From the NCBI GenBank assembly GCA_913063035.1, contig CAJXYS010000008.1, positions 1 through 64,000 of the forward strand: 64,000 bases of DNA, written 5' to 3'. The stretch is from an uncultured Maritimibacter sp. (GTDB lineage: Bacteria; Pseudomonadota; Alphaproteobacteria; Rhodobacterales; Rhodobacteraceae). A model generated the notes under the pieces. That model searched no databases. It worked only from the letters and a program-made list of their open reading frames with translations, and was not told where the DNA came from. The translations under genes and the position numbers were made by a program. Below, piece by piece: positions 61,178-64,000 of the stretch. Within the stretch, counting starts at the first letter, position 1, and each line of letters opens with the position of its first letter.

Positions 61178-61591
61178 ATGCCAAGCATATCGACCGGTTT
61201 CGACGGGCAGACCGTCATCACCACGTTCGAGATGACGCCCGGCACCTGCCAGGACCTGCTGGAGGAACTGACCCGCGCCTATGACGAACTGATCAGCCAC
61301 CAGCCCGGCTTCCTCGGCGCCGGGCTGCACGTGAACGACGCGCAGACCCGGATCGTGAACTATTTGCAATGGCGCCGGCGCGAGGATTTCCAGGCGATGC
61401 TGCGCACCCCCGAGATGCGCGAGCGGAACCGCAAGATCGCCGCGCTGTGTTCGCGGTTCGAGCCGGTGATGGTGGAGGTCGCGGCGGTGTTTTTGAGGGC
61501 GACATGCCGACGGTATTCCGGTATCTTGGTTTCCGCTTCTTCTTCTATTCGAACGAGGGAGACCCGCGCGAGCCGCCCCATGTGCATGTGA
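61178..61591 (+). CDS. Antibiotic-biosynthesis-monooxygenase (ABM) family protein with apparent +1 frameshift at the 3' end
   Basis: The first 106 residues are a typical ABM dimeric ferredoxin-like domain (VITTFEMTPGTCQDLLEELTRAY, GFLGAGLHVN, NYLQWRRREDFQAML). The normal end would be VEVAAVF-stop. Here a T-run (TTTTT at 61490-61494) carries one base more than expected, so the stop TGA at 61494-61496 is out of frame and the reading runs 33 residues into the next gene. Removing one T restores the end just before the DUF4160 start. The extra base may be a true mutation or a sequence error. A diverged copy of this 3' end, with the stop in frame, lies at 61984-62045. Confidence 0.7.
   Translation: MPSISTGFDGQTVITTFEMTPGTCQDLLEELTRAYDELISHQPGFLGAGLHVNDAQTRIVNYLQWRRREDFQAMLRTPEMRERNRKIAALCSRFEPVMVEVAAVFLRATCRRYSGILVSASSSIRTRETRASRPMCM
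61437..61499 (+). repeat. Direct repeat, copy 1 (3' end of the ABM gene)
   Basis: A 63-bp segment covering the codons for AALCSRFEPVMVEVAAVF and the TGAGGG after them. It matches copy 2 at 61984-62045 with about seven substitutions and a one-base difference in the T-run. The two copies flank the DUF4160-DUF2442 pair. Confidence 0.8.
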
Positions 61592-61746
61592 TGGGAGAGG
61601 GCGGCGAAGCGAAGTTCTGGCTGCGGCCGGAGGTTTCCGTCGCGACAAGCGCGGGGCTCGACGCGCGCCACCTGCGGCGGCTTCTTCGGGTCGCGGAGGC
61701 GCGGCGGGACGAGATCGAGAGGGCATGGCATGAGCATTTCCGCTGA
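61504..61746 (+). CDS. DUF4160 protein
   Basis: An 80-residue basic protein opening MPTVFRYLGFRFFFYSNEGD, with EPPHVHV-like PREPPHVHVMG and AKFWL, all hallmarks of DUF4160. The C-terminal helix ends IERAWHEHF. DUF4160 genes commonly sit beside DUF2442 genes, as here, and the pair has been suspected of being a toxin-antitoxin-like module. The ATG follows a GAGGG 7 bp upstream and overlaps the extended ABM reading. It overlaps the next gene by 17 bp. Confidence 0.8.
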   Translation: MPTVFRYLGFRFFFYSNEGDPREPPHVHVMGEGGEAKFWLRPEVSVATSAGLDARHLRRLLRVAEARRDEIERAWHEHFR

Positions 61747-61975
61747 GACGGTGCGCTTCGACGACGACGCGATGTGGGTCACGCTCAGCGACGGCCGCGT
61801 GATCGGCGTGCCGCTGGCATGGTTCCCGCGCCTGTTGCGCGCCAGCGAGGAGGAGCGCGCGGCCGTCACGATTTCCCCCTTCGGCCTGCACTGGGAAGCG
61901 CTGGACGAGGATATCTCGGTCGCCGGGCTGCTGGCGGGCCGGGGCGACATGGGCGGGGTGGGGCAGGTGGCGTAG
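61730..61975 (+). CDS. DUF2442 protein
   Basis: An 81-residue protein with VRFDDDAMWVTLSDGRVIGVPLAWFPRLL and GLHWEALDEDISVAGLL, the family's diagnostic segments. It begins inside the DUF4160 gene (17-bp overlap), so production is coupled. DUF2442 resembles a small DNA- or protein-binding fold and may be the antitoxin-like partner. The codon use is like that of the host. It ends 8 bp before the second copy of the direct repeat. Confidence 0.8.
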   Translation: MSISAETVRFDDDAMWVTLSDGRVIGVPLAWFPRLLRASEEERAAVTISPFGLHWEALDEDISVAGLLAGRGDMGGVGQVA

Positions 61976-61983
61976 CGCTATGG

Positions 61984-62045
61984 TCGCCGTGCTCTGGTCA
62001 CGGTTCGAGCCGATGATGGTGAAGGTGGCGGCGGTTTTTTGAGGG
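61984..62045 (+). repeat. Direct repeat, copy 2 (remnant of an ABM gene 3' end)
   Basis: Reads VAVLWSRFEPMMVKVAAVF-stop, the same end as copy 1 with the stop in frame. It has no start codon or upstream domain, so it is a gene fragment. It marks the right edge of the DUF4160-DUF2442 cassette. The sequence becomes AT-richer immediately after it. Confidence 0.75.
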
Positions 62046-62085: not shown

Positions 62086-63036
62086 TCAAGAGCTATTGTA
62101 CGTCCTCAAGAATCTTCCGTGACATGAAGAAAACTTCATGCCGCTATTGCAAGGGCAATTCGCGCACGGATTGATTGCGGCCCACGCAAAATCAAGATGC
62201 AGGGGGAAGTAGTTGGCGTCGGTTCGAGTCCACATAAAACTCACGCCATTTGGGTCGCCTTCTTCAACAACTAGAGTTCCATTTTTTTCAAAGCTAATCA
62301 AATTTGGGTGCTCGTAGACGCCAATTCTCTCCATAGGGACGTTGCGAATCGAGCTTCCATCGCCATTGGTGAGTTCGTAGCTGCCATCAAAAACCTTAAG
62401 GGCTGCCTTTGCGAACTTGATTTCAGCCCTTGTTATCTCGAACAGTCTTGGCGGCGTTGTTGTGATCTGAAGAACAATCCTTCGATGTCGTTCGCGTATA
62501 GTGACTGTCCGGCCCACCACGTCGACATCCCAATTCTGAACTCCAGCCTTCCACTCATTGTCCTCAATGATCATGGCTTCCGCCCCGTTGGAGGAAGGAA
62601 ACCTTGCACAAAGCCGAAATGGGGCACCAGTTTCTTCTGGTGGCTTAACTTGGAGAAGAGACTGCCCACCGGCGCTGATAATGCTGCGGCTATTTCTTGC
62701 CACAATCGCACCCAGCTTGACGATCGGGGGTACACGGCACAAATCAAACATGCCAAAGGAATACCCACGCTTCTTGGTTTCGGGGTTCTTCTTGGCGCGC
62801 AACACGCTGGATTTCGAGAGAAAGCCGCGGGTTACCCTGTCGTGACAGGCCGCGCACAAGAGTGTCATTCTTGTCGGATCATGCTCTCTTGATTCCGAGA
62901 ATACTGGATCGATGTGTTCATACTGAAAGATTGCGTTTCCACAAACGACGCAGCCGAAGCCCGCCTCCCGGCGAATTTGCCGTTTTATGTTTTCGGGGAT
63001 GTTTCGACTCAGGCCAAACTTGTTTGTACTCGCCAT
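62086..63036 (-). CDS. HNH endonuclease-like protein with C-terminal SEC-C motif
   Basis: A 316-residue protein. Residues 25-70 form a zinc-bound HNH nuclease: C29/C32 in CVVCG, H41 in YEHIDP, and C61/C64/H65 in CAACHD. A beta-rich middle part of about 180 residues is of no family I recognise. The C-terminus ends with PCANCPCNSGMKFSSCHG, a good match to the SEC-C metal-binding motif. The ATG at 63036 has GGAGAGAA just before it. The gene is clearly lower in GC and different in codon use (AAA, ATT, CTT) from its neighbours, a sign of transfer. Defence or recombination roles are possible; none is shown. Confidence 0.75.
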   Translation of the reverse strand: MASTNKFGLSRNIPENIKRQIRREAGFGCVVCGNAIFQYEHIDPVFSESREHDPTRMTLLCAACHDRVTRGFLSKSSVLRAKKNPETKKRGYSFGMFDLCRVPPIVKLGAIVARNSRSIISAGGQSLLQVKPPEETGAPFRLCARFPSSNGAEAMIIEDNEWKAGVQNWDVDVVGRTVTIRERHRRIVLQITTTPPRLFEITRAEIKFAKAALKVFDGSYELTNGDGSSIRNVPMERIGVYEHPNLISFEKNGTLVVEEGDPNGVSFMWTRTDANYFPLHLDFAWAAINPCANCPCNSGMKFSSCHGRFLRTYNSS

Positions 63037-63069
63037 TTCTCTCCACTCGTACACAATTGCGGCCGGTTA

Positions 63070-64000
63070 TTACCGCCCCCGCTTCCCCCGCTGCGGCCGT
63101 GATCCCGCGCGCCCGGCGGTCGATCGGCCCTTGACCTTCTGCGCCGCCTCCACCGCCTCCTCGATCACCGACTGCCGCGCCAGCGGGTCGTCGTGGACGG
63201 CCAGGTCGACCGCCTCCAGCCGCTTCACCTCGTCGCGGAGCCGTGCGGCCTCCTCGAATTCGAGGTTCTCGGCGGCTTTCATCATCCGGTCCTTCAGCCC
63301 GTCGAGATGGGCCTGCAGGTTCTGCCCGACCATCGGCTTCTCGATCTCGGCGGTGACGCGGGCCATGTCCGTGTCGCCCTTGTAGAGCCCGGCCAGCACG
63401 TCCTCGACGTTCTTGCGGATCGTCTCGGGGGTGATGCCGTGTTCCTCGTTATAGGCGATCTGCTTGGTACGGCGGCGGTCGGTCTCGCCGATGGCGCGTT
63501 CCATGCTGCCCGTGACGCGGTCGGCATACATGATCACCCGGCCGTCCGCGTTCCGCGCCGCCCGCCCGATGGTCTGGATCAGCGAGGTTTCCGAGCGCAG
63601 GAAACCCTCCTTGTCGGCATCGAGGATCGCCACCAGCCCGCATTCGGGGATGTCGAGCCCTTCGCGCAGCAGGTTGATCCCCACCAGCACGTCGAAGGCG
63701 CCGAGGCGCAGGTCCCGCAGGATCTCGATCCGCTCGATCGTGTCGATGTCGGAATGCATGTAGCGCACGCGGATTCCCTGTTCGTGCAGGTACTCCGTCA
63801 GATCCTCGGCCATGCGCTTGGTCAGCGTGGTGCAGAGCGTGCGGTACCCCGCCTGACTGACGCGCCGCACCTCGTCCAGCAGGTCGTCGACCTGGGTGCC
63901 GACCGGGCGCACCTCCACCGGCGGGTCGAGCAGGCCGGTGGGCCGGATCACCTGCTCGGCGAAGACGCCGCCGGTCTGATCCAGCTCCCACGGGCCGGGC
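63070..64000 (-). CDS. uvrB: Excinuclease ABC subunit B, 5' part cut off by the window edge
   Basis: The C-terminal 309 or so residues of UvrB, the damage-verifying helicase of nucleotide excision repair. Helicase motifs V and VI are present as [14 protein letters not shown] and [12 protein letters not shown], and the C-terminal UVR domain ([17 protein letters not shown]) binds UvrC. The end ([11 protein letters not shown]) is a basic tail. The start lies beyond position 64000. The HNH gene follows 33 bp downstream on the same strand. Confidence 0.95.

Follow-up and report, generated by a model that had tools for sequence, protein, structure and literature searches.

A HNH-SEC-C gene with an all-beta middle domain at a variable site beside uvrB in an uncultured Maritimibacter sp.

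The window, a 64,000-bp stretch of a contig from an uncultured Maritimibacter sp., ends within uvrB, and the gene described here follows uvrB on the same strand (Table 1). Its open reading frame of 316 amino acids is intact and runs from an ATG at bp 63036 to bp 62086, with a GGAG resembling a ribosome-binding site a few bases 5' of the start; an alternative GTG start is possible 18 bp further upstream, which would lengthen the product to 322 amino acids. The host genome contains a single copy. No promoter-like site was found in the gap between uvrB and the HNH-SEC-C gene and, since this gap is 33 bp long and the two genes lie on the same strand, they are probably co-transcribed. The gene has a GC content of 0.507 compared to a mean of 0.680 (sd 0.029) for 951-bp windows, the minimum of the whole 64 kb, which bears out the sharp contrast with the host described in the initial annotation. 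The GC3 of the gene is 55% (0.55) as compared to 92% for the adjacent piece of uvrB, which has a GC content of 0.69. Most of the family members that were checked are also more AT-rich than their surroundings.

Table 1. Features at the 3' end of uvrB and within the adjoining HNH-SEC-C gene
Feature	Coordinates (bp)	Strand	Evidence
3' end of uvrB, left flank of the insertion; core gene, GC3 92%	63070..64000	(-)	Gene order in relatives, composition
33-bp gap from uvrB stop to ATG, with GGAG site	63037..63069	(-)	Sequence scan
Whole gene, 316 aa: HNH, all-beta domain, linker and SEC-C	62086..63036	(-)	ORF
Predicted HNH nuclease domain, residues 1-90, Cys4/His zinc-ribbon-like residues	62767..63036	(-)	PHROG HNH models, sub-threshold PF01844, Cap5 Z 8.1, conservation
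All-beta domain, residues 91-236, no recognised fold	62329..62766	(-)	AlphaFold pLDDT above 90; no significant PDB match; part of PHROG 6544
Linker, residues 237-292, low-confidence, not common to most relatives	62161..62328	(-)	pLDDT below 50; alignment
SEC-C motif CANCPCNSGMKFSSCHG, residues 293-309	62110..62160	(-)	PF02810 above cut-off; also in L030 and L055

Relatives keep the order of ABM and uvrB, with differing content between the two genes. In the sister genome (G024, locus L163), whose ABM is 95% identical, the site holds 745 bp and is empty of both the HNH gene and the DUF4160-DUF2442 pair that adjoins it in the window. The site next to the 3' end of uvrB, suggested earlier as a hot spot, is variable, and the pair is the cassette insertion that had been reported alongside the gene. 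An imperfect 57-nt direct repeat (61437-61493 and 61984-62040, 86%) flanks the pair (61504-61975). This repeat is the 3' end of the ABM gene; L163 has a single copy of it and lacks the pair, so the pair seems to have brought its own ABM gene end. In the first ABM copy the stop codon position has been lost through one extra T. A DUF4160-DUF2442 pair also lies downstream of ABM in another relative (G012, L174 3657-4127), where DUF2442 is 79% identical, indicating that the pair reached the ABM side of the site early or on more than one occasion.

The domain order proposed from the sequence, HNH followed by a beta-rich middle and a SEC-C tail, was upheld: the HNH domain was recognized by PHROG models and by structure, the middle is predicted to be all-beta, and PF02810 passed its cut-off. 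PHROG HNH models match residues 10-75 with E values down to 1.5e-6, and PF01844 at residues 29-69 (E 0.0011, 19.5 bits) falls below the Pfam cut-off of 21.4. The zinc-ribbon-like residues are C29, C32, H41, H52, C61, C64 and H65. An alignment of 51 members showed C29, C32, Y39, H41, H52, C61, N160, W169 and D170 to be invariant; the window protein keeps all of these, plus C64 and H65. H41, proposed for mutation in the initial annotation, is among them. The Asn from which HNH takes its N, on the other hand, is not conserved. Sequence and structure both support a nuclease, and by analogy with related families this domain is a probable metal-binding, DNA-cutting one.

The nearest structures to the HNH part are Cap5, then IscB, EcoKMcrA and ScoMcrA, with Z values of 8.1 to 5.8 that indicate fold class and not function. 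Cap5, an HNH-SAVED effector of CBASS, resembles the window protein in its HNH domain, which aligns over 76 residues at Z 8.1 and rmsd 2.4, and in carrying a sensor-like domain C-terminal to an N-terminal HNH, but the all-beta domain modelled alone returned no match to Cap5 or its SAVED domain. The window ORFs of the upstream 8 kb include no CD-NTase gene; the neighbours there are ABM, DUF4160, DUF2442 and other ORFs, with uvrB on the opposite side, where the window ends. McrA-type HNH restriction enzymes share the HNH fold (EcoKMcrA Z 6.7, ScoMcrA Z 5.8), but their HNH is C-terminal to a DNA-reading domain whereas that of the window protein is N-terminal, and its beta domain gave no match to that DNA-reading domain.

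An AlphaFold model of the full protein, built with 51 sequences, is confident over residues 1-236, with pLDDT above 90 to about residue 230, and drops below 50 for most of residues 237-316 and nearly all of 237-295. Prediction of the middle on its own, suggested beforehand, gave pLDDT 90 and pTM 0.86 for residues 91-262. The beta domain carries a conserved signature, N160-E-W...W169-D170...T-I-R. Foldseek searches of PDB and BFVD with the full model returned no match below E 0.001; for the beta domain alone the top Foldseek E was 0.17 and the top VIA Z was 3.4 over 68 residues, all to unrelated-looking beta proteins. This lack of a significant PDB match does not prove that the modelled domain is a new fold. 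Beta domains lacking an HNH were sought in IMG/VR, plasmids, phages and phylum genomes; the matches were known HNH members or, in the cases inspected, frames that also carry an HNH. At every occurrence found, the beta domain is fused to this HNH type.

Residues 1-208 are covered by PHROG 6544 (E 4.2e-58), a phage protein family labelled 'unknown function', and the beta part alone matches it with E 5.6e-17. Because PHROG 6544 spans the HNH and most of the beta domain, these form one known, uncharacterised unit. The 248-position family ends there, however, while the window protein runs on for approximately 100 residues and the SEC-C motif. Judged by sequence, the window protein is a variant of this family with an extra C-terminal hundred residues or so. 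The initial annotation considered the domain order unnameable, which is correct in that no family spans the whole protein, but not for the HNH and beta portion, which is an existing PHROG reaching residue 208. Comparison of the full protein with Pfam, NCBIfam, PADLOC and PDB sequences picked up just its HNH and SEC-C portions. In PADLOC, which lacks a model of the core, the hits were restricted to E2 models at residues 288-314, over the SEC-C motif. A search of the literature, excluding preprints, on HNH with SEC-C or on prophage hotspots returned nothing on the HNH-beta-SEC-C architecture.

The HNH and beta core recurs in more than 100 records, which include several kinds of prophage, plasmids, integron cassettes and positions beside restriction genes. 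It was detected at 5 genome-collection loci, on at least 90 IMG/VR contigs, on 9 plasmids, in one Klebsiella phage and in 97 of 5,426 E. coli genomes, where prophages of lambdoid and P2-like type carry it. Among 61 close relatives, the one genome that carries it is the window's own. One of the 385 class genomes has it, as do 5 of the 398 phylum genomes and 9 of the 394 family genomes; five of these 9 match only the first 85-123 positions, at HNH level. A viral contig (L091 2332-4427) carries two different members in tandem, the second of 376 amino acids with an unassigned extension, and the copy in E. coli ST12468 (L110 6986-9023) is broken by an IS3 element.

The settings of individual members are varied. 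A lambdoid prophage of E. coli strain F9792 carries the gene between ybcK and ybcN-ninE-rusA. In JS316 (L109) the gene is part of a P2-like prophage, where replication genes and portal genes flank it and a SEFIR gene adjoins it, and on a Pseudomonas luteola plasmid it follows portal genes. Six 143-nt attC-like repeats, 585-881 bp apart, are present in genome G986 (L111 166-3567), and the gene precisely fills the interval between two of them, as an integron cassette; similar sites are present in L003 and L005 at one edge. The repeats of L004 were not accepted as integron sites. One member (L106) follows a type I restriction cluster, made up of hsdS, a PDC-S06-like AAA gene and hsdR, at a distance of 85 bp on its downstream side, and the gene next to another (L055) is a Mrr_cat restriction-type gene. 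The initial annotation proposed looking for the architecture near defence genes: three individual members (L106, L055 and L109) adjoin defence or restriction genes, L055 among them having a SEC-C tail. Core genes with host-like composition were looked for among the homologues and not found. Composition, the mobile settings of relatives and absence from the sister genome agree with the horizontal acquisition suggested at the outset, and the gene reads as a recent arrival.

PF02810 matches residues 294-308 with 24.2 bits, above its cut-off of 20.4. The host genome has one other SEC-C match, in a frame ending in a SecA-type tail, CPCGSGKKFKHCHG. The window protein resembles SecA in having a C-terminal C-x-C-x-SG-x6-CH motif after a flexible linker, but it lacks the SecA motor and has CPCNSG in place of CPCGSG. 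Although the SEC-C tail noted in the initial annotation is present, it is one among several alternative tails. A comparison of 57 sequence-distinct members found it in three: the window protein and two prophage proteins, L030 and L055 (353 and 305 aa), the only other HNH-beta-SEC-C members found. The three show 31-37% pairwise identity, and their linker lengths are unrelated. They fall in one part of the tree, where SEC-C takes 2 changes, or 1 change in 31% of bootstrap trees, so that a single origin of the tail and more than one are both compatible with it. A search with an alignment of the trio found no new SEC-C members. A Photobacterium damselae plasmid member (L012 8001-9191) instead has an FKBP-type peptidyl-prolyl isomerase tail (FKBP_C E 1e-14); the PLSDB table has no annotated gene at this position. 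L103 and L114 have long unassigned C-terminal extensions, and most members end soon after the beta domain. By these comparisons the C-terminal tail is a variable and apparently interchangeable part of the family.

Our tentative reading of the observed architecture, family, mobility, absence from relatives, tail swapping and insertion site, to which we give a probability of about 0.45, is that the gene encodes a horizontally spread, self-contained accessory HNH nuclease whose beta domain and tail control cutting, most plausibly in defence or competition between mobile elements. Mobility and patchy distribution, together with the exchange of tails, speak for an accessory role. The N-terminal domain would cut DNA, and the all-beta domain is predicted to be a control or recognition module that sets when or where it cuts. 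Zinc binding and contact with SecB or the ribosome have been established for the SEC-C of SecA, and this domain touches 70S ribosomes (PMC6620043). By analogy, the tail would dock the nuclease to SecB, ribosomes or nascent chains, although nearly all of the linker to it is predicted at low confidence, leaving the docking without structural support. A docked nuclease may be placed or triggered during infection-driven translation, and the carrier, whether a cell, prophage or plasmid, would be protected against other phages or mobile elements. The more specific proposal of a single-gene anti-phage nuclease, with a new-fold beta sensor or reader and exchangeable tails that couple activation to the nascent-chain and chaperone machinery, is unlikely as a whole.

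The defence neighbours lead us to lean towards conflict between mobile elements, and a virus-defence protein, one possibility raised initially, is a reasonable candidate. However, methyltransferase neighbours are common in prophages, which counts against reading them as defence, and many of the relatives occupy the nin region of lambdoid prophages, surrounded by genes for replication, recombination and late regulation. For these nin-region members a role in serving the phage is equally possible. It is less probable that the family as a whole serves the phage, for example in DNA replication, recombination or packaging, and that the copy in the window was left stranded by a prophage. In favour of this are the family's status as a PHROG and, in lambdoid prophages, the location of members with replication genes on one side and ninE, rusA and Q on the other. 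Against it, the family is also found as an integron cassette, on plasmids of small size and next to type I restriction-modification genes, settings that need no phage genes. Few prophages carry it, its position varies by phage type, and no phage genes surround the window copy.

Tight control would be required of a toxic nuclease that lacks a partner immunity gene, and this weighs against our preferred reading. Location on plasmids and prophages, with RelE/ParE-type genes nearby in some loci, would suit a stability or toxin gene that acts on its own cell through addiction or abortive infection; this we consider improbable, as no conserved partner gene adjoins the members and the window gene is maintained alone. 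Nor is it probable, and rather less so, that the gene is a decaying acquisition with no present function. Its atypical composition and the absence of a promoter-like site upstream are consistent with decay, but the 316-codon frame is open, the conserved HNH and SEC-C residues are all kept, a ribosome-binding-like site is present, and the gene is on the same strand as uvrB, so that readthrough can express it. Free-standing HNH genes are often homing endonucleases, and the sporadic distribution of the family would fit a selfish element that cuts allelic sites to spread. Members occupy unrelated positions and replicons and not one allelic site, such enzymes do not typically combine a beta domain this large and conserved with exchanged tails, and the window gene is a single copy with no intron or disrupted gene, making homing very unlikely.

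If the gene is indeed an accessory nuclease under the control of its beta domain and tail, the swapping of tails such as SEC-C and FKBP provides an experimental handle, since tails that set the trigger should, when exchanged or deleted, alter which phages are affected. Compact, and carried by plasmids, integron cassettes and prophages of both lambdoid and P2-like type, the HNH and beta protein is a good target for functional and structural study.
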